Positions 7,100-17,347 of a DNA stretch of 64,000 nt are shown in pieces. Numbering within the stretch: position 1 is the stretch's first letter; every line of letters starts with the position of its first letter. The notes beneath the pieces were generated by a model. That model was not told the DNA's origin and did not search any database. It saw only the letters and a program-made list of their open reading frames with translations. Where the stretch lies: contig NZ_JAMXFC010000019.1 in NCBI RefSeq assembly GCF_025370755.1, positions 1 to 64,000 of the forward strand, written 5' to 3'. Source of the stretch: Laspinema sp. D2d (GTDB lineage: Bacteria; Cyanobacteriota; Cyanobacteriia; Cyanobacteriales; Laspinemataceae). Made by a program: the position numbers and the translations under genes.

Positions 7100-10000
7100 T
7101 TAGCGTCGCCCAGAAGGGAGATTCTTGCGATCGCCTTGTTCTTGTTCTACTTTTTTCAAGTTTTGGGTCATCTGACCATTCCCATTGGAAACCGACTCCT
7201 GTTCTACAGGTTCTGTCGAAACTGTGCTGTCTGTTTCATCATGTCCTTTGTGCATTAACCGATATTGCGCTTTCATCGCAATGGTATAAAACACCGGAAT
7301 GACATACAAACTTAATACCGTAGAAACAAACATTCCGCCGACAACGGACATCCCGATCGCGACCCGGGCCGCTGCCCCCGCCCCCGTGGCAAATGCTAGG
7401 GGTAACAATCCGAAAATGGTAGAAAAAGCGGTCATCAAAATGGGACGAAATCTCACCCTAGCCGAATCGATCGCCGCCTTGGTAATTGAGAGTCCTTCTT
7501 CCCGACGCTGATTGGCAAATTCTACAATCAAAATAGAGTTTTTCGTTGCCAAACCAATCAGCATGATTAACCCAATTTGACTGTAAATGTTTAAGTCTAG
7601 CCCCGCCAGTAACAAGGCTGAAAATGCGCCTAAAAGAGACAAAGGAACAGCCAATAAAATGATAATTGGGTCAATGTAGCTTTCAAACTGAGCCGCTAAC
7701 ACCAAGAAAATAAAGACCAGGGATAACCCGAAGATAAATAGGGTCGATTGTCCGGATTCTCGATATTCCAAAGACTGACCCGCGAGAGTCACTCGCATAT
7801 CAGCCGGAATAACGGAAGGAGCTAAATTTTCCAAAGCATTTAAGGCATCTCCCAAGGTAAATCCTTGGGCGGGAGAACCCGAAATAGTTGCGGCCCGATA
7901 GCGATTATAGTGGTTAATTTGCGGGGGTGTCGTTGAAGGACTAACCGTCACCACACTACTGAGGGGAACCGACTGTCCCGACTCGGTGCGAATATAGGTT
8001 TGTTCGATATCTTGGGGAGAAGATCGGAATTCTTTTTCCGATTGAACAATCACCTCATACCGGCGGTTTCCTCGGTTAAAATTAGTGATTTGCTGTCCCC
8101 CAAACATGATTTGTAAGGTTCGGGAAATATCCTGGACCGAAATACCTAAATTTGCGGCTTGAGCGCGGTCAATGGTAATTAATAATTCGGGTTTAGTCAG
8201 GGTTAAATCTGTGTCAACGTTCATTAATTCCGGCAACTCATTGGCTTGATTTGCCAACTCTTCCGAAACCCGAGCCAGTTCCTCTAAATCAGTGCCTTGC
8301 AGCACAAATTCTACAGGTTGACTAAACCCCGCACCCGGTAAAGAAGGGGGATTAATGGGTAAAACGACCGCATCTGTAATCTGGGAAAACTGACCGAATA
8401 AGCGACCAATAATCTCCTGTTGAGACTGACCCGCTTCAGTTCGTTCCGCCCAAGGTTGGAGGCGAACAAAGGCAAATCCCTGATTCACTTGACCAGGAGT
8501 CCCCCGACCAAATGCACCAATGGTTAAATAACTTCTAACTTCCGGGATTTTACTATACGCCTCTTCTACCTGTCGCATCACATTATCGGTGTAATTAATC
8601 GTCACCCCTTGCGGACCTCGAACAATCGTAAAAATTGCCCCTCGGTCATCGCTGGGAATGAATTCTTTAGGGACTTGATTAAATAAGAAGACGGTCAAAG
8701 CTAAGGACCCAATAAAGGCAATGACGACAATCGCTTTAAAGGGCATGATTTTTCGCAAAGACCACCGATATACCCGTTCCATGCGATCAAAAAAGAATTC
8801 GATAATCGCAAATACTCCGCCTTTCATTTCTGCATCTCGCTTTAAAATGCGGGCAGATAATGCCGGTGCTAAGGTCAAGGCAACAAAAGAAGAAATTACC
8901 ACCGAACCTGCGAGAGTGAGGGCAAATTCGGTAAATAATCGCCCGGTATTTCCTCCGGAAAATCCCACCGGCACAAACACAGCAATTAACACAACGGTAG
9001 TGGCAATTACGGCAAAGACTACCTCACTCACTCCAAGCAAAGCTGCTTGGTAGGGTTTCATATTTTTCTCTTGAATATACCGGACAATATTTTCTAGGAC
9101 AACAATCGTATCATCCACGACTAACCCAGTCGCTAAGGTCAAGGAAAATAAAGTCAGGGTATTAATGGAATACCCGAGAATAAACATGATGGCAAATGCG
9201 CCTACCAAGGAAATGGGAATAGTGAGTGACGGAATTAAAGTCGATCGCCAGTCCCGTAGGAAGACAAAGATAATCAGAATAACCAGCAATGTTCCCAGAA
9301 AAAGGGAAGTCCAAACTTCATCAATGGCGAGTTCTACAAATTCCGAAGTATCAAAAGCTACCTGATAATTTAACCCTTCGGGGAAATTTTTGGAGAGTTC
9401 CTCCATTTTGGCTTTGGCACCGCGCGCCACATCAATTGTATTGGCACTGGAGAGCTTTACAACCCCTAGAGAAACTGCGGGAATGCCCTTAAAACGAACA
9501 AACGAGCGATCGCTTTCTGCACCAATTTCCGCCCGTCCCACATCTTTAAATCGAATTTGCGTCCCATCAGGATTGCGCTGAATAATTAAGTCTTCATATT
9601 CCAGCGGCGTTTGCAATCTCCCCAGAACCCGTACGGAATATTCCGATTGTTCTCCCTCGACTAAACCCCCGGGAATTTCTAAGTTTTCTTGACGTAAGGC
9701 ACGTTCAATATCCAAAACCGTCAAATTCCGCGCTGCCAACTTCACTGGGTCGATCCATAATCGCATCGCATAGCGCCGTTGACCCCCAATAAAGATGTTA
9801 CTGACCCCAGGAACAGTTTCCATATTGTCTGTAATAAACTGTTCGGCATAGTCACTTAATTCGAGGGAGGTATAATTTTCCCCAAATAAGGCAAACCACA
9901 CGATGGGAGAAACATCGCCTTCCTGTTTGGTGACTTGGGGAGTATCGACATCCTCGGGGAGTTGACGCAACGCCCGATCAACTCGCGATCGCACGTCTTG

Positions 10001-10312
10001 GGCGGCCAAATCAATATCGCGATCGAGGTTAAACTGAAGGGTAATGGAACTCACCCCTTCTCGACTTTGGGAAGTGAGAGTTTTAATCCCTTCAATCCCA
10101 TTTAGTTGACCTTCTAAAATTTCTGTAACTTCGGTTTCTACCACCAGAGGACTGGCACCGGGATAAACCGTGGATACTGTCACAACTGGCGGATCAATAC
10201 TGGGAAATTCCTGAACCGGCAATCTTGTATAACCGACTAACCCAATGATGATAATCAAGAGGGAACAGACGGAAGCGAAAACCGGGCGTTTGACAAAAAA
10301 AGTAGTAAACAT
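7100..10312 (-). CDS. RND multidrug/hydrophobe efflux pump, HAE1 type
   Basis: 1070 residues, the usual length for AcrB-like pumps. The N-terminus FFVKRPVFASV is the classic start, TM4 carries the proton-relay pair in GLVVDDTIVVLEN (~402-414), and the second half has GLATKNSILIVEFANQ (~925). Two large periplasmic loops are present. The pump takes substrates from the periplasm or inner membrane and works with the membrane fusion protein encoded just upstream, plus an outer-membrane TolC-like channel that is not in this window. The last ~50 residues are a polar Gln/Glu/Ser-rich tail. Substrate cannot be told from sequence. Confidence 0.95.
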   Translation of the reverse strand: MFTTFFVKRPVFASVCSLLIIIIGLVGYTRLPVQEFPSIDPPVVTVSTVYPGASPLVVETEVTEILEGQLNGIEGIKTLTSQSREGVSSITLQFNLDRDIDLAAQDVRSRVDRALRQLPEDVDTPQVTKQEGDVSPIVWFALFGENYTSLELSDYAEQFITDNMETVPGVSNIFIGGQRRYAMRLWIDPVKLAARNLTVLDIERALRQENLEIPGGLVEGEQSEYSVRVLGRLQTPLEYEDLIIQRNPDGTQIRFKDVGRAEIGAESDRSFVRFKGIPAVSLGVVKLSSANTIDVARGAKAKMEELSKNFPEGLNYQVAFDTSEFVELAIDEVWTSLFLGTLLVILIIFVFLRDWRSTLIPSLTIPISLVGAFAIMFILGYSINTLTLFSLTLATGLVVDDTIVVLENIVRYIQEKNMKPYQAALLGVSEVVFAVIATTVVLIAVFVPVGFSGGNTGRLFTEFALTLAGSVVISSFVALTLAPALSARILKRDAEMKGGVFAIIEFFFDRMERVYRWSLRKIMPFKAIVVIAFIGSLALTVFLFNQVPKEFIPSDDRGAIFTIVRGPQGVTINYTDNVMRQVEEAYSKIPEVRSYLTIGAFGRGTPGQVNQGFAFVRLQPWAERTEAGQSQQEIIGRLFGQFSQITDAVVLPINPPSLPGAGFSQPVEFVLQGTDLEELARVSEELANQANELPELMNVDTDLTLTKPELLITIDRAQAANLGISVQDISRTLQIMFGGQQITNFNRGNRRYEVIVQSEKEFRSSPQDIEQTYIRTESGQSVPLSSVVTVSPSTTPPQINHYNRYRAATISGSPAQGFTLGDALNALENLAPSVIPADMRVTLAGQSLEYRESGQSTLFIFGLSLVFIFLVLAAQFESYIDPIIILLAVPLSLLGAFSALLLAGLDLNIYSQIGLIMLIGLATKNSILIVEFANQRREEGLSITKAAIDSARVRFRPILMTAFSTIFGLLPLAFATGAGAAARVAIGMSVVGGMFVSTVLSLYVIPVFYTIAMKAQYRLMHKGHDETDSTVSTEPVEQESVSNGNGQMTQNLKKVEQEQGDRKNLPSGRR

Positions 10313-10362
10313 TGGGTTAGGGATTCGCGATTATTAAGGGCTAATTCCTGATTGTTTTAAAG

Positions 10363-10399
10363 AAAGTGAGAACTAATTTAAAAGTTAGATTCTCACTTT
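10363..10399 (-). other. Intra-operon hairpin between fusion protein and pump genes
   Basis: AAAGTGAGAACTAA and TTAGATTCTCACTTT pair with one bulged base. It sits in the 104-bp gap between the two cotranscribed genes and may lower read-through or stabilise the upstream mRNA. There is no strong U-run behind it. Confidence 0.5.
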
Positions 10400-10416
10400 A
10401 CTGAAATTACCGAGGC

Positions 10417-12345
10417 TTACCGCGATGGTGCTGCCTTCGGGGAAGATTCGGGATTCGCTGCCGGTGGTTCATCGACAATCGGACGAATCTGATCCCCATC
10501 GGAGAGCCGTTGTAAACCAGAAATGACAATGAGATCGCCGTTTGCCAGTCCTTCAATCACTTCCGCGCGATCGCCTTGGACTAATCCCAGTTGTACCGGC
10601 ACTCGTTCCGCAGTCGCCGGGTCCTCCCCTCGCGCCACAAAGATAAATCGCTCCTCCCCTTGGAACGTAATCGCCGTAGTTGGCACCACAATCCGATTGT
10701 TCCGTTCATCCCAAACCAACTTCGCCCTCACAAACTGGCGATCGCGTAATTGCCCTTGATTGGCAAAACTTGCCTTCGCTAAAATCGTTTGGGAATCAGA
10801 ATTCACCGTGGGAGAGACAAAACTCACTCTCCCCATACTCAAGGGTTGTCCGTTGGCATCAGTAATTTCCACCGGCATCCCCAACTTCAACTCAGGCCCG
10901 CGTTCCAGGGGAATTGACAGCCGCAATTCCAAAGCATCATTTTGGGTCAAAGTCGTTAATTCCTGCCCGACACTGACGACATCGCCCACTTTCGCTGGAA
11001 TATCGCCGACGATTCCCTCAAAGGGTGCGACGACATTGGCATCTTGTAACTGGACTTCCAACTCTCTCACTTGGGCGATCGCCTCTGCCAACTGTGCCTT
11101 AGCTTGGTCAATCTCCTCGGGTCGGGTCCCATTCTCTAATTGCCGTAACTCTTGCCTGGTTTCTTCGACTTCCGCTTCGGCGCGGGCAATTTCTTCGGGA
11201 CGTGCGCCATTTTCTCGCTGATTCAGCAATTGCTGGGCTTCCGCAACCTCCGCTTCCGCCTGAGCAATTTCTTCCGGGCGCGCCCCACTTTGTACCTGGG
11301 CTAACGCTTGTTCCGCCTCCGTCACTTGTAATTCAGCACCTACAATTTCCTCACGTCGCTGGTTTTCCAACTCCTCCACCCGTTGGCGAAATCGCTGTAA
11401 ATCCGCTTGAGCACGACGACTTTCCGTGACGACTTCATCAAAGCGATCGCGGGAAATTGCCCCTTGATCCGCTAATTCCCGATTCCGTTCCACCCGTTCC
11501 GTGGTTAATTCCACCCGCGCTTGAGCATCCGCAATTTGGGCTTCAGCTTGGGCGATTTCATCCCCCCGACTCCCCGCCCGTAAAGATTCCAGACGCGATC
11601 GCGCCTGTTGTAACCTAGCCTCCGCTTGAGCAATCTCTTCCGGACGATTCCCCGCTCGTAATTCCGCCAACCGCGCCTGAGCCTGCCGCAAACGCGCTTG
11701 TGCCTGAGCAATCTCTTCAGGACGAGTCCCCGCGAGGACCTCCGCCAATCGGGCCTCCGCTGCGGCTAAACGGGCCTCTCCTTGGGCTATTTCCTCCGGT
11801 CGGGTTCCCGCTTGTAACTCTGCCACCCGAGATTGCGCCCGAGCTTGGGCTGCCTGGGCTTGGCGAAGTCTAGCTTCAATTTCCCGGGTATCAATTCGGG
11901 CAATAATATCGCCTTGGGAGACTTTATCCCCCGCTTTGACCTCAATCTGGCTCACCCTTCCGGCCATTTCTGGGCGCACCACTGCTGCCTGTTGGGCCTC
12001 TAAGGTCCCGACAAACTCCGAGGTTTCCCTTAAATTGGTCATTTCCACGGTCGCTAATCGCACCGCTACCCCTTTGGGTTGTTCCGCTGCACCTTTCTGT
12101 TCGCTACTCGCCATTGCGGTTTGCCGCGATTGCCAAAAATACCAGCCGGTGCCACCCCCGGCGACTAATAACAACAGAAACAGAGCAGAAGCCAGCGATC
12201 GGCCCTGCCTACTAGCCCATTTAAACCGGCGTTTTTTATTGCGTAAGGGTTGGTCTAGCTGTTGCTCTAATTCGGTTTCATGAGCAACAGAATTTACAGG
12301 TTCTTTAGTTTTCAGTTCGGCATTAGAATCGTTAGGTGATTTCAT
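10417..12345 (-). CDS. RND membrane fusion (adaptor) protein with expanded repetitive hairpin
   Basis: 642 residues, against roughly 380-450 for most AcrA-type proteins. One membrane anchor at ~51-70 (ASALFLLLLVAGGGTGWYF), then a barrel-sandwich half (~93-150, VKAGDKVSQGDIIARIDT), a very long coiled-coil hairpin (~155-450), the second lipoyl half (VVAPFEGIVGDIPAKVGDVV, ~455) and beta-barrel and membrane-proximal domains. The extra length lies almost all in the hairpin, built of 26-residue repeats starting (A)G-x-RPEEIAQAEA. The protein links the inner-membrane pump to an outer-membrane channel across the periplasm. It is the second gene of a PadR-adaptor-pump operon, 86 bp after the regulator gene. 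Confidence 0.92.
   Translation of the reverse strand: MKSPNDSNAELKTKEPVNSVAHETELEQQLDQPLRNKKRRFKWASRQGRSLASALFLLLLVAGGGTGWYFWQSRQTAMASSEQKGAAEQPKGVAVRLATVEMTNLRETSEFVGTLEAQQAAVVRPEMAGRVSQIEVKAGDKVSQGDIIARIDTREIEARLRQAQAAQARAQSRVAELQAGTRPEEIAQGEARLAAAEARLAEVLAGTRPEEIAQAQARLRQAQARLAELRAGNRPEEIAQAEARLQQARSRLESLRAGSRGDEIAQAEAQIADAQARVELTTERVERNRELADQGAISRDRFDEVVTESRRAQADLQRFRQRVEELENQRREEIVGAELQVTEAEQALAQVQSGARPEEIAQAEAEVAEAQQLLNQRENGARPEEIARAEAEVEETRQELRQLENGTRPEEIDQAKAQLAEAIAQVRELEVQLQDANVVAPFEGIVGDIPAKVGDVVSVGQELTTLTQNDALELRLSIPLERGPELKLGMPVEITDANGQPLSMGRVSFVSPTVNSDSQTILAKASFANQGQLRDRQFVRAKLVWDERNNRIVVPTTAITFQGEERFIFVARGEDPATAERVPVQLGLVQGDRAEVIEGLANGDLIVISGLQRLSDGDQIRPIVDEPPAANPESSPKAAPSR
11055..11811 (-). 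repeat. 26-residue coding repeats in adaptor hairpin
   Basis: Seven copies of a ~78-bp unit encoding (A/N)G-x-R-P/G-E/D-E-I-A/D-x-A: four in tandem in the descending helix (residues ~179-282), then a non-repeated tip containing ELADQGAISRDRFDEV, then three in the ascending helix (~350-430). The near-symmetric split over both helices suggests paired lengthening of the hairpin by repeat duplication. Confidence 0.85.
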
Positions 12346-12431: not shown

Positions 12432-13010
12432 TTAGGAAAGTTGGCGATCGCCGGAGTAATTTTTTCCTACCTGGGTTTGGGCTGTATCCCGATTCCCCTG
12501 TTGTTTCATTTCAATGGCAATTTGTGCTTGCACCCATTCGATTTCTGATTTCAAAACATCCCAATGTCGATTCCAAACAGCGACTTGATAGAAATCCTCC
12601 GGCAAAGCTTTTTCACTGAAACTTTTATATCGAGCACGACAAAGCCCTAAACGATGCTCCATTAATTCCAGCCTCATCTCCGGTTCTAAGTCACTGAAAA
12701 AGAAACATTTAATGGCAAAACGAGCGCGACTTTTCACCCAGCTATCCTGGGGATGTTCGAGCATTTTCTGCCGCCAGCGATCGCGCCCCGTGGGGGTAAT
12801 CCCATAAATCGTGCGACTGGGACCCGCGTCTCCAGATTCTCGGGCGATCGCCGCAATGTGACCCCGTTCCTCCAAGCGTTTCAGCAAGGGGTAAATGGCT
12901 CCATAGTTGACGCTCATGCAGCTACTCATAAATAGCTCCAGTTCTTGCTTCAACCTGTATCCATGTAGGGGATGGCGCTGCAGGAGTCCTAAAGCAGAGA
13001 GTTCAAGCAT
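12432..13010 (-). CDS. PadR family transcriptional regulator
   Basis: 192 residues. Residues 1-85 are the PadR winged helix: start MLELSALGLLQRHPLHGY, then SVNYGAIYPLLKRLEERGHI and the wing with RTIYGITPTGRDRW. Residues ~90-175 form the C-terminal helical dimerisation domain. PadR proteins usually repress nearby exporter or stress genes and release DNA on binding a small molecule. It is the first gene of the regulator-adaptor-pump operon, so auto-repression and pump control are likely. A perfect palindrome sits directly before the start codon, and a broken copy of this gene lies at 15290-15721. Confidence 0.9.
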   Translation of the reverse strand: MLELSALGLLQRHPLHGYRLKQELELFMSSCMSVNYGAIYPLLKRLEERGHIAAIARESGDAGPSRTIYGITPTGRDRWRQKMLEHPQDSWVKSRARFAIKCFFFSDLEPEMRLELMEHRLGLCRARYKSFSEKALPEDFYQVAVWNRHWDVLKSEIEWVQAQIAIEMKQQGNRDTAQTQVGKNYSGDRQLS

Positions 13011-13011
13011 T

Positions 13012-13028
13012 TATATCATTTTGATATA
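13012..13028. promoter_or_regulatory. Probable PadR operator palindrome
   Basis: TATATCA TTT TGATATA is a perfect 7+3+7 inverted repeat ending one base before the padR-like start codon (13010). PadR dimers bind AT-rich palindromes of this kind. A second imperfect inverted repeat, TAGGCTA-x5-TAGCCTA, follows at about 13030-13048 and may overlap the promoter. In duplicate copy B the first palindrome is degraded. Confidence 0.6.
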
Positions 13029-13277
13029 TGTAGGCTACAGTATAGCCTAATCGATTAAATTTTGTTAAGTTTCTGGGGAGGTCAATGTTTGCCCACACCC
13101 CCACAAGGTGCAGCCACAGTAATGCAGTCCCCACAGTGGGGGGCCAAAGATATTGGGTATATCATTATTTATTTATTTTGTCAAGTTTCATTGGAATGAA
13201 ATCTTTAGGGATTGTCCCTGTCGTTAGTCGGCACAGGCGGGCTTAGTTTGTGGAGCCAGACCCTTAAGGGTGCGGGT

Positions 13278-13546
13278 TTATTTTGACATTTCCACTAACT
13301 CGGACATCCCATTAATACAACCTAAAATTAATCCATCAATCCCACTGACTGGCAATATAGGGGTTTTTAATTGAGCCGCCAAATGCTCCCCGGTCACATT
13401 ACCTAAAAACCTTGTTTCTCCATGTTTTAATATCGCATCGGGCAACAAAATTGCATCGCCTAACTTTCTATTTTGCAACCCGTTGAGCAAATCTTGACCT
13501 GTTAAAACACCAGTAACGCTCATGGGTTGTCCCCAAAAATCACTAC
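13278..13546 (-). pseudogene. C-terminal fragment of DUF512/radical-SAM protein gene
   Basis: An 81-residue frame beginning at an internal Met (13523) matches the last 81 residues of the intact gene at 15986-17347 at 70 of 81 positions. The sequence upstream of 13546 is unrelated, so the radical SAM and PDZ parts are absent. It is a product of the local duplication and has no sign of its own promoter. Function is unlikely. Confidence 0.85.
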
Positions 13547-13643
13547 TGCACTGTGGACCCGGGACGGAGATTTTTCAGTCCCCGTTATCCCCTCAGAGGC
13601 TAAACAATTACGGAAAAATCCGCTCACGAGGCGCGAACAATAA

Positions 13644-13739
13644 ATCTTGACAGTGATTGTAGCCGGACGGAGCAATCAGGAAATTGCAAACTTTCTCTAC
13701 ATTGCTTCAGGTACTGTCAGAGTCCATTACATAGCAAAG
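13644..13739 (+). pseudogene. Relic of a LuxR/NarL-type HTH domain
   Basis: Thirty-two open codons on the plus strand read ILTVIVAGRSNQEIANFL and then YIASGTVRVHYIAK. This is the core of a LuxR-family helix-turn-helix (G-x-SNQEIA-x-L-x-I-x-x-GTV). A TAA stands directly before it and no start or receiver domain is in frame. It lies between the DUF512 fragment and the LEA-like gene, in sequence that does not belong to the duplication, so it is probably debris of a lost response-regulator gene. Confidence 0.55.
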
Positions 13740-13766
13740 AGTGGACCTTTTTCTAAGATCCACTCT
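13738..13766. terminator. Hairpin downstream of LEA-like gene
   Basis: AGAGTGGA and TCCACTCT form an 8-bp stem with a 13-base loop, about 57 bp beyond the LEA-like stop codon. No U-run follows on either strand, so the terminator role is only possible. Confidence 0.4.
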
Positions 13767-13822
13767 CTGTTAAACTCTCTTAGCCCTAACTTTCACAAGC
13801 TAGAGTTAAGTTCTTACTTTAC

Positions 13823-15016
13823 CTAGTCCTTAATGATTCTCTGGTCATTAATGACCACTTTGTCCTTAACTTCAGGACTGCCGGAGATGTGAATATCGCT
13901 CTCCTTTTCCTTGTTTTTCTCTGCGGCGGAGTCGGCTAGATATTGGGCAGATGACTTAATATCATGCCCTGCACCTTTAGCAGATTGGGCTGCTTTTTGG
14001 GCAGATGACTTAACATCATGCCCTATCCCTGGAGAAAATGGGGTTGGATTTGGGGCAGATGACTTAACATCATACCCTGCACCTTTAGCATAAGGCGTTG
14101 GATTTGGGGCCGATGACTTAACATCATGCTTAACATCCTGCGCTGCATCTTTAGCAGATTCGGCAGCATTGTGGGCCGATGACTTAACATCATGCTTAAC
14201 ATCCTGCGCTGCATTTTTAGCAGATTGGGCTGCGCTTTGAGCAGATGACTGAAGCGATTGGGCTGCGCTTTTTACAGATGGCTCAACTGCTTTCGCTGTA
14301 TCTTTTACAGTCGATCGCAGCTCCTTAGTTGCCCCCTCAATTTCCTGAGCTACAGCTTTGGCAGAAGGTTTAACTTCATCGGCAGTGCTCTTAATAGAGT
14401 CCGCTGCACTTTGTATAGAAGGCTTGACACCTTCCACGGTCTGCTTGACTGACTCTTTTACTTCTCTAATCGTAGGTTTGACTTCCTCGGATGCGCTTTT
14501 GACTGCATCTACTACAGAAGGCTTTGCTTCCCTAACTGTCTGATCGACAGATTCGGCTATACCTTTAATCGAAGGCTTGGTTTCCTCAACAGTCTCCTTA
14601 ACTGCTTCTGCTGTAGCCTTGATAGAGGGTTTAACGTCCTCAGCAGTTTCCTTTACTACTGTCCCTAACTCTTCTACCGTGTGGGTAATACCGTCAGCGA
14701 CCGTGTGTGCTGCATCCCCTAAATTATCTACAGCACGGTTAACCGTATCAGCAGTACCCTTACCAATGATAGCGCCAGCAACTGAGCCTGCTACCGCACC
14801 AACAATGCCTCCAGAGCGAGCACCGAGGATACCACCGACTGCTGCTCCAGCTATCCTCGCACCAATCCCTGAGCCTGATGATTCATCTTCCTGAGATTCT
14901 GCATTTTCGTTAGTCTGAGCCAGAAGTGGCTGGTTCTCGCTATTGTCCACATTTTTTTCTTCAGAGTCAGGATTATATGCAAAAGGCTTGTTAAAATGCG
15001 GGTTATTATTCGTCAT
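13823..15016 (-). CDS. LEA-like / apolipophorin-like amphipathic repeat protein
   Basis: 397 residues. The N-terminal ~45 residues are polar and disordered-looking. Residues ~48-90 are a glycine-zipper segment (GARIAGAAVGGILGARSGGI and onwards) that could insert in or lie on a membrane. Residues ~95-280 are a long amphipathic Ala/Lys/Glu/Val region with a recurring EEVKPSIK-x-x-A-x-SVK motif of 11- and 22-residue spacing. Residues ~280-375 hold a recent repeat built on DVKSSA with NPTP and AAQSAK variants. This is the composition of late-embryogenesis-abundant and YtxH-like stress proteins, which protect membranes and proteins on drying. The gene is flanked by 1-kb direct repeats. Desiccation protection is inference. 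Confidence 0.65.
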   Translation of the reverse strand: MTNNNPHFNKPFAYNPDSEEKNVDNSENQPLLAQTNENAESQEDESSGSGIGARIAGAAVGGILGARSGGIVGAVAGSVAGAIIGKGTADTVNRAVDNLGDAAHTVADGITHTVEELGTVVKETAEDVKPSIKATAEAVKETVEETKPSIKGIAESVDQTVREAKPSVVDAVKSASEEVKPTIREVKESVKQTVEGVKPSIQSAADSIKSTADEVKPSAKAVAQEIEGATKELRSTVKDTAKAVEPSVKSAAQSLQSSAQSAAQSAKNAAQDVKHDVKSSAHNAAESAKDAAQDVKHDVKSSAPNPTPYAKGAGYDVKSSAPNPTPFSPGIGHDVKSSAQKAAQSAKGAGHDIKSSAQYLADSAAEKNKEKESDIHISGSPEVKDKVVINDQRIIKD

Positions 15017-15061
15017 AAATATCCGGGGGTATTACTACACTCACTATGCTAACTATTAATT

Positions 15062-15125
15062 CCTAAGAAAATCTACTGCTAAAGAACTAGATCTTGCTGC
15101 TACTTAAGAAGTAGATTTTCTTAGG
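15062..15125. promoter_or_regulatory. Large inverted repeat upstream of LEA-like gene
   Basis: CCTAAGAAAATCTACT (15062-15077) and AGTAGATTTTCTTAGG (15110-15125) are perfect 16-bp arms, 32 bases apart. The right arm overlaps a smaller hairpin CTACTT-AAG-AAGTAG (15100-15114), so two exclusive folds are possible. It is 45-110 bp upstream of the LEA-like start codon and could lie in its 5' untranslated leader or be a remnant of a mobile repeat. Confidence 0.5.
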
Positions 15126-15289
15126 TACTTACCGCTACTGCGCTAGGAGATCGCTGTTCATTCGACCTTGAAGAACTTGAAGAAGCGGGAGGCGCGCGAT
15201 CGCACATCGGGCGCAGAGTCTTAAGCTTGGCTATCCCAAAATAACTCATTGAGCCAGACTTACTAACCGATTAATTGTTGATATTTAAA

Positions 15290-15721
15290 CCTAAGCTTTG
15301 TTGCACCCAGTCGATTTCTAATTTCAGAAAATCGAAATATCAATTCCAGACGACGACTTGATAGAAATCCTCCGGCAAGAAGGGTTTTTCTGAGAAACTT
15401 TTGTCTCGGGCACAACAAAGCATTAACCGAGGTTCCATTAATTCCCTCCGTTTCTCCGGTTCTAAGTCGTAGAAAAAGAAAAATTTAATCGCAAAACAAG
15501 GGCGACTTTTTACCCAGGTATCCTGGGGGTATTCGAGCATTTTCTCCAGCCAGCGATCGCCCCGACTGGGGGTAATACCATAAATCCTCCGATTAGGACC
15601 TGTGTCTCCAGATTACCGGGCGATCGCCCCAATGTCACCCCGTTGCTCCAAGCGTTTCAGCAAGGGGTAAATGGCTCCATAATTGACGCTGTAGGAGTCC
15701 TAAAACAGAGACTTCAAGCCT
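15290..15721 (-). pseudogene. padR-like pseudogene
   Basis: Second copy of the regulator at 12432-13010. Lesions visible: the start codon ATG is changed to AGG (15719-15721), about 65 bp of the winged-helix region are deleted between short GCGCT/ACGCT repeats, and an in-frame TAA replaces a Glu codon (near 15613). Only a 66-codon stretch (15340-15540) remains open, matching the C-terminal dimerisation domain. It cannot encode a DNA-binding protein. Confidence 0.85.
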
Positions 15722-16254
15722 TTATAATCATTTTGATATATCCAGGCTACAGTATAGCTTAATTGATTAAATTTTGTTAAGTTTATGGGTGATGCCCAGG
15801 TGGGCCGACAGGCAGGCATGGTCCAGCTACAAGAACTCAGCCCCCACAGGCGCAGGATAAAGATGCTTTTAACATCAAAATTTAGTTATTTTGTTAAGTA
15901 TTAATAAAATGAAATCTCGGGCGATTGCCCATGTAGTTAGCGGGGCGGAGTTGGTTTGTGGAGCCAGACCCTTGAGGGTGCGGGCTTATTTTGACATCTC
16001 CACCAACTCAGATAGCCCATTAATACAACTTAAAATCAGCCCCTCAATTCCACTCACGGGTAATATTGGCGTTTTTAATTGAGCCGCCAAATCTTCTACT
16101 GTCATATTATCTAAAAACCTAGATTCTCCATGTTTTAACATGACATCCGGCAGCAAAATGGCATCGCCTAACTTTCTATTTTGCAATCCGTGGAGCAAAT
16201 CTTGACCTGTTAAAACGCCAGTCACACTCATGGTTTGTCCCCAGAAATCGCTAC
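15290..16254 (-). repeat. Direct repeat copy B: broken padR-like gene plus DUF512 C-terminus
   Basis: Partner of the block at 12515-13546, same orientation, with a ~65-bp deletion in the padR-like part. In this copy the DUF512 gene is intact and the padR-like gene is broken, the reverse of copy A. Confidence 0.85.
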
Positions 16255-17347
16255 AGAGGGCTACCATTTCTATCTGTAACCCTTCTACCGAATTTAATCG
16301 GTCTACAATCGGTTGAAAGGCTTTTTCTACGGCATTTCCCACTACCCAGGTGAATTGTCGCGGAGGAGATACGTTGGGCGGCAATAATTCCGTAGCAATT
16401 TCCTCAAATTCATCTAAGAATTGTCGGATAGAACCGACGCCGTTGCCGATTTGGGGATAGTCTTCATAGTCGGATTCTAGGGGTACTTCTTCCCCGGCAA
16501 TCAAGAACCATTCATCGGCTAACCAGGCAAAGTTAGATCCTAATTTTTTGCTGAATTTCGGTTGTAAGGCTTGCACTTGTTGGATGACTTCTCGGGCTTT
16601 TTCGGCAGTTACGGGGATGAGTTCATCTTCCTCGGGACGAAAGCGAGTTAAGCCGACGGGGACGACGGCGACGGAGGCGACGGCAGGAATATCTCCCTTA
16701 CCAAATTTAGCGAGGTCTAAGAGGGTGGTTTCGAGGTGTTTTTCATCATTAATGCCGGGACAAACAACGACTTGAGCATGAATTTGTAAGCGTTTTTGTT
16801 GAAACCACTTTAATTGGTCGAGAATCTGGCTGGCGCGAGGATTTTTTAATAAGCGAGTGCGAATTTCGGGTTCCGTGGCATGGACGGAAACATAGAGGGG
16901 AGAGAGGCGCATTTGTTCGATGCGGTTCCACTCTTTTTGACTGAGGTTGGTGAGGGTGAGGTAGGAACCGTAGAGGAAGCTGAGGCGATAGTCATCGTCT
17001 TTGAGATAGAGGGTATCTCTCATTCCTGGGGGTTTTTGGTCGATGAAGCAAAAGGGACAGCGATTATTACATTGAATCAGTCCATCAAATAAGGCGGATT
17101 CAAATTCCAGTCCCAGGTCTTCATCATAGTCTTTTTCGATTTCTACTTGATGGGTTTTGCCTCGGGTGTCGATGACTTCGAGTTCAAGGAGTTCATCGGT
17201 ACAGAGAAATTGATAATCAATTAAGTCTCGGGGTTTTTGTTGGTTGATAGAAACGATCGCATCGCCAGGTTCAAACCCAATTTCGGCAGCGATGGAGTCG
17301 GGAATCACTTTGGTAATGACGGCAGGACGGATGGCAGATTCACTCAT
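15986..17347 (-). CDS. PDZ / radical SAM / DUF512 protein (TIGR03279 family)
   Basis: 453 residues. Residues ~8-60 are a PDZ-like domain (PDSIAAEIGFEPGDAIVSIN), followed by a radical SAM core with the CNNRCPFCFIDQ cluster motif (C-x3-C-x2-C, ~90-102) and the DUF512 domain (~235-450). The family is nearly universal in cyanobacteria; the iron-sulfur centre and SAM use are predicted but no reaction is established. The last 81 residues are duplicated as a fragment at 13278-13546. It lies 82 bp downstream of the giant kinase gene, same strand. Confidence 0.88.
   Translation of the reverse strand: MSESAIRPAVITKVIPDSIAAEIGFEPGDAIVSINQQKPRDLIDYQFLCTDELLELEVIDTRGKTHQVEIEKDYDEDLGLEFESALFDGLIQCNNRCPFCFIDQKPPGMRDTLYLKDDDYRLSFLYGSYLTLTNLSQKEWNRIEQMRLSPLYVSVHATEPEIRTRLLKNPRASQILDQLKWFQQKRLQIHAQVVVCPGINDEKHLETTLLDLAKFGKGDIPAVASVAVVPVGLTRFRPEEDELIPVTAEKAREVIQQVQALQPKFSKKLGSNFAWLADEWFLIAGEEVPLESDYEDYPQIGNGVGSIRQFLDEFEEIATELLPPNVSPPRQFTWVVGNAVEKAFQPIVDRLNSVEGLQIEMVALCSDFWGQTMSVTGVLTGQDLLHGLQNRKLGDAILLPDVMLKHGESRFLDNMTVEDLAAQLKTPILPVSGIEGLILSCINGLSELVEMSK

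Follow-up and report, generated by a model that had tools for sequence, protein, structure and literature searches.

How does a gene of foreign descent come to lie between two partial copies of the same piece of resident DNA, each copy bordering a different intact gene? The question is raised by a locus in a 64,000-nucleotide stretch of the cyanobacterium Laspinema sp. D2d (assembly GCF_025370755.1, contig NZ_JAMXFC010000019.1, positions 1 to 64,000; hereafter the window, genome G000). Read along the minus strand, it runs from a histidine kinase gene through a full DUF512 gene, a dead padR-like gene (padR-B), a gene for a late embryogenesis abundant (LEA)-like protein, a regulator fragment on the other strand, a 3' fragment of a DUF512 gene and an intact padR-like gene (padR-A) to HlyD-type and RND-type efflux genes. 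We compared eight Laspinema genomes, including the window, and used two members of other genera in the same family (G008 and G009) as outgroups. We put at roughly 60% the probability that one insertion-duplication at the DUF512-padR-HlyD-RND locus, in an ancestor common to all the Laspinema genomes sampled, followed by loss of the spare regulator gene, produced this arrangement. The population genomics of Laspinema has been treated before (PMC9500459), and the sections of that paper drawn on here make no mention of the locus.

The first-pass annotation, made from the window alone, had proposed a 1-kb direct duplication, and BLAST confirms it, with ends 11-13 bp shorter on the padR side. Copy A (12528..13546, minus strand, 1019 bp) holds the DUF512 3' fragment, an intergenic stretch and the first ~161 codons of the intact padR gene, and copy B (15301..16254, minus strand, 954 bp) holds the 3' end of the full DUF512 gene, an intergenic stretch and the decayed padR gene. 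The two are direct repeats about 81-85% identical, aligning at 81% over 576 columns (E 9e-153) and 84% over 390 columns (E 1e-118). Identity by part is 230/270 (85%) for the DUF512 3' end and 354/418 (85%) for padR; because 200 of 261 intergenic positions (77%) are also identical, the likeness extends past coding motifs. Homology stops abruptly at either end, and outside the repeat the two sides are no more alike than shuffled sequence (121 and 126 of 200 shuffles were equally good).

These ends are shared between genomes. On the padR side, homology ends at the identical base in G000, G002, G004 and G007; elsewhere, the B copy breaks off sooner in G003 and G005, and G006 is without that part and retains the tail. 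On the DUF512 side the end is again one identical base in all three genomes that retain it (G000, G001 and G002), and in the window this is the right junction (13546..13547), where foreign DNA on the regulator side meets DUF512; that part is gone in G003, G005, G006 and G007, and G004 has lost the fragment. A mixed A/B stretch in G001, a fragmented assembly of 680 contigs, might be a misjoin, but the same layout and ends recur in several separate assemblies and a 7.69-Mb contig of G005 spans the locus, so that the chance of an assembly artefact is negligible.

The first-pass annotation had suggested looking for relatives with one padR-DUF512 pair and no LEA-like gene, and both outgroups are of this kind: G008 and G009 carry DUF512-padR-HlyD-RND in single copy, with DUF512-padR gaps of 108 and 197 bp. 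This single-copy order is ancestral. No padR match was found in four other members of the family (G010-G013). Within Laspinema the two-copy layout recurs, and no two-copy genome has both padR genes intact. In the six Laspinema genomes whose locus lies within a single contig, 2975-6257 bp separate DUF512 from padR-A, whereas the gaps between histidine kinase and DUF512, padR and HlyD, and HlyD and RND are just 81-360 bp. In a tree of the copies, all 15 fall within the Laspinema clade (98/99), which identifies both flanks as resident DNA. Direct repeats of resident DNA thus border the insert on both sides, and the neighbouring genes are reciprocally truncated.

A single insertion-duplication would by itself place the insert at the copy junction and truncate each flanking gene on one side only. 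The same anatomy would follow from two steps, with an ordinary ~1 kb tandem duplication first and the LEA segment entering the copy junction independently afterwards, and the DUF512-padR interval did take further inserts in the genus, which makes a later insertion plausible. Such an insertion would, however, have had to fall exactly at the junction and not elsewhere in ~2 kb of repeats, and a bare tandem repeat is seen in none of the eight Laspinema genomes; we consider the two-step route unlikely.

That the copies enclose unrelated DNA with an LEA-like gene, as first annotated, holds. Judged by its relationships, this DNA is foreign and horizontally acquired. Most of it is an LEA-like cassette (13733..15277, minus strand) that includes an upstream region and a terminator of its own. 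Homology to Microcoleaceae cassettes begins near the padR-B stop codon and extends through the LEA terminator. Cassette identity reaches 82.6% over 1618 columns in G045 and 84-85% in G276, genomes in which DUF512 is only 67-77% identical, a modest margin over the best-conserved DUF512 part (77%). The non-coding DNA upstream of the gene is still 72-80% identical across families. Relatives of the gene occur at E 1e-50 in 21 of 388 genomes of the order, and the segment has no match at 1e-8 in any of six other family members. The LEA tree groups the Laspinema genes in a single clade (100/100) that nests among those of Microcoleaceae and of G206, an uncultured Coleofasciculus. It is the patchy distribution, the nesting in the tree and the non-coding similarity that carry the foreign origin. 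The tandem rearrangement that the first-pass annotation favoured therefore stands as far as the duplication goes but is too narrow as the sole account, since the middle was horizontally acquired and has relatives in other families.

At 13 non-Laspinema loci inspected, LEA relatives in Microcoleaceae and Coleofasciculaceae have different neighbours; in Coleofasciculaceae these are, by sequence type, presumably leuC/leuD-like, and in Microcoleaceae they are other genes. Contigs of GTDB yielded 29 LEA loci, the last five being weak and not genes of cyanobacterial filaments. Soil crusts and mats are known habitats of several of the families concerned.

Between the LEA-like gene and copy A lies a piece that the first-pass annotation had missed, a fragment of a LuxR/GerE-type response regulator gene (about 13547..13727, plus strand), antisense to the LEA-like gene. 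As read in G001 it matches GerE (PF00196) at E 1.3e-12 over profile positions 2-37 of 57 only, and in the window it contains a stop. The regulator gene is intact in L136, and in Symplocastrum torsivum, where it lies about 5.6 kb from LEA. The joint between LEA terminator and regulator is identical in G206.

The LEA-like gene itself (13823..15016, minus strand) encodes 397 amino acids rich in Ala, Ser and Lys, with a glycine-rich stretch near the N-terminus and amphipathic repeats of hydrophobic periodicity at 11, 18 and 22 residues. The protein matches ApoLp-III (apolipophorin-III-like) above the Pfam cut-off, and no LEA family model matched it, counting matches up to E 0.01. A role in drying or osmotic stress would be a guess; the literature searched gave no publication combining LEA protein, cyanobacteria, horizontal gene transfer, desiccation and Microcoleus, which does not imply absence from print. 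The gene is complete in five of the eight Laspinema genomes (G000, G002, G004, G006 and G007), was not found in G003 or G005, and is interrupted by a contig end in G001. Across the first 265 codons in the five genomes, variable columns number 33/16/82 at codon positions 1/2/3, which suggests that these five have kept it under purifying selection. Upstream of the gene, within the foreign cassette, is an inverted repeat with 23-nt arms (15062..15125). About 126 bp at the LEA start, including this repeat, are tandemly doubled in G002, G004, G006 and G007 and single in the window.

Transposition or site-specific integration of a mobile element, with the 1-kb repeats as a long target duplication, might be suspected from this inverted repeat and from cassette neighbours that vary by family. 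No transposase or integrase open reading frame lies between the copies, however, and the extent of cassette homology varies among families. A repeat of 1 kb also far exceeds the target duplications of known transposons, which to our knowledge are far shorter. We regard such an origin as highly improbable.

The first-pass annotation had further described a complementary loss, with copy A keeping an intact padR-like gene beside a DUF512 fragment and copy B a full DUF512 gene beside a dead padR-like gene. The gene contents are as described and the decay of padR-B is real; the loss of DUF512 has another cause. The full gene (15986..17347, minus strand, 453 aa), of the DUF512/TIGR03279 radical SAM type, scores 766 bits against the TIGR03279 model (cut-off 574.7). 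The fragment (13278..13546, minus strand, 81 aa, from about codon 366) scores 66.5 bits and is cut at the duplication breakpoint. Because its starting base is shared by G000, G001 and G002, the piece was truncated by the breakpoint and not by later decay, and reciprocal decay of DUF512 is ruled out. We counted differences from the consensus of all copies at codon positions 1/2/3 and compared them by Fisher tests. The full gene gave 18/10/91 and the fragment 13/22/34, omitting the G001 piece (2/1/14), which behaves like the full gene; third-position bias is weaker in the fragment (35:34) than in the full gene (28:91; p 2e-4), in keeping with a fragment that is probably non-functional.

Of the two padR genes, padR-A (12432..13010, minus strand), which adjoins the HlyD-RND genes, encodes a 192-aa PadR-family regulator (PF03551, E 2e-17, 63.4 bits against a curated cut-off of 27) and is intact in all eight Laspinema genomes. 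padR-B (15271..15721, minus strand) persists as a remnant in seven of the eight and is broken in all seven. To the lesions already recognised in the window (ATG to AGG at the start, a 65-bp deletion, located at codon 11, and an in-frame TAA), we can add an in-frame TGA and a 3-bp insertion; the pseudogene ends in a short tail and stop codon of its own. Differences by codon position are 31/25/106 in padR-A, concentrated at third positions, and 65/44/61 in padR-B (p 7e-8), suggesting that padR-A stayed under purifying selection. The lesions of padR-B are mostly lineage-specific, the exception being two deletions common to G003 and G005, and the gene of G006 retains its ATG; padR-B therefore probably died several times.

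These results are consistent with the following course. A foreign segment, made up of the LEA-like gene, the promoter region and terminator belonging to it, and a leftover piece of the LuxR-type regulator gene, would have integrated at the DUF512-padR-HlyD-RND locus in that ancestor. The resident DNA between DUF512 codon ~366 and padR codon ~161, about 1.02 kb, would thereby have been placed on both sides of the insert, leaving the whole DUF512 gene on one flank and padR beside the efflux genes on the other. The second DUF512 would have been without its 5' end from the outset. Parted from its presumed target genes, padR-B would then have been lost, by mostly different mutations across lineages. 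We infer that insertion and duplication were one step, the route being perhaps a single crossover of a circle that carried local homology, or a join in which a foreign fragment linked sister chromatids. The event is ordinary in kind and a clear case of gene capture. It gives a natural record, in several genomes, of foreign DNA entering a chromosome without a visible mobile element and leaving duplicated flanks, in which the surviving duplicate is the regulator copy beside its efflux genes, and it adds an LEA-like gene that spread between cyanobacterial families.

Several observations weigh against a single insertion-duplication. It would require local homology and foreign DNA to have come together on a single molecule, and the non-Laspinema LEA loci searched yielded no donor in which padR adjoins LEA. 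The right joint has no more than two matching bases, and so bears no homology signature of an integration route. The tree of copies gives no separate A and B clades, and constraining A or B together costs 15-16 log units, a cost at which neither constraint is rejected (approximately unbiased test, p 0.161 and 0.128); a single duplication therefore rests on the shared ends and not on the tree. In G001, in which no padR-B was found, the DUF512 end at the copy A position (L038, G001:C505) is B-like, and after it comes a stretch that other genomes have behind the full DUF512 gene; this mixed stretch reflects either exchange between copies or misassembly. G006 retains ~45 bp of G206-like sequence beyond the junction of G000, G001 and G002, which points either to a longer original insert or to a second arrival in G006.

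The left junction zone (15278..15301) raises a further difficulty. This final ~25 bp ahead of the LEA cassette lies past the end of padR-B/padR-A homology, and the padR-B tail, which differs from padR-A at 15 of 27 bases (counted by eye), resembles a PadR C-terminus; this tail would be missing if padR-B were simply copied from padR-A. A search for a donor source of the tail found matches at 1e-5 in 4 of 380 genomes outside the genus, at 44-50% identity. A tail and stop immediately ahead of the cassette would suit an order of events in which LEA was inserted downstream of padR first and a later, larger duplication was followed by deletion of one LEA copy. Under this order, a further deletion must have taken LEA out of the second copy and left no trace, and no relative has LEA between padR-A and HlyD, so that we think it very unlikely.

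A single insertion-duplication has parallels elsewhere. In E. coli conjugation experiments, as described in the part of the report used here, 56 of 60 clones gave a duplication-diagnostic PCR product, and 14 sequenced clones carried duplications of 109-950 bp, ascribed to single crossover of a (re)circularised molecule (PMC3240628). The Laspinema locus resembles such Campbell-type insertion-duplications in having foreign DNA between direct copies of ~0.1-1 kb of resident DNA; unlike them, it is natural and ancient, and no vector or circle is seen. It shares with homology-facilitated illegitimate recombination (HFIR) a foreign/resident joint with little or no homology. HFIR products, however, generally carry a deletion, with a joint of mostly 3-10 bp (PMC3240628, same part), where Laspinema has a duplication, and the homologous anchor that HFIR needs in the donor was not found at the non-Laspinema loci searched. 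In transformation-generated merodiploids, DNA uptake can make tandem duplications by bridging sister chromatids; according to the portion of that work cited here (PMC3784515), these are ~100-900 kb and repeat-driven, whereas the Laspinema repeat is ~1 kb with foreign DNA at the joint.

The interval has gone on changing. A metallophosphoesterase gene stands ahead of copy A only in G003 (L037), G005 (L034), G006 (L035) and G007 (L033). A gene near LEA in Tychonema is 92% identical to it, a closer match than that of the LEA cassette, and a relative adjoins LEA in Symplocastrum. We considered a circular permutation of the donor order, given LEA-regulator-metallophosphoesterase in Laspinema versus metallophosphoesterase-LEA in Symplocastrum and Tychonema; because of the 92% identity to Tychonema and the restriction to four genomes, a later second arrival is simpler. 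The LEA and RND trees conflict over G006, which makes exchange within the genus likely. After DUF512, G004 (L032:6531-8219) and G005 carry a ~2-kb insert encoding a ParA-like ATPase, an unknown protein and a weakly Mrr-like protein, for which PADLOC gave weak matches only. It is 97% identical between the two genomes, whose DUF512 genes are 91-92% identical to that of the window, and was possibly exchanged recently between two species. A GT61 glycosyltransferase gene lies in the interval of G001 and G007, and another stretch of ~0.75 kb in that of G001, G002, G003 and G007. That the self-made repeat turned the locus into a repeated landing site for these later genes, with LEA and metallophosphoesterase passing from one cyanobacterial family to another as a loose gene set without a mobile element, seems to us quite unlikely.

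On the far side of padR-A, the HlyD-type (10417-12345) and RND-type (7100-10312) efflux genes occupy 7100..12345 of the minus strand. padR adjoins HlyD or RND genes in the cyanobacterial relatives examined; unlike this usual arrangement, Laspinema has a second, dead padR beyond a foreign insert. Within the HlyD-type gene, positions 11095-11808 contain several internal direct repeats of ~78 nt that encode a PEEIAQAEARL-like motif.

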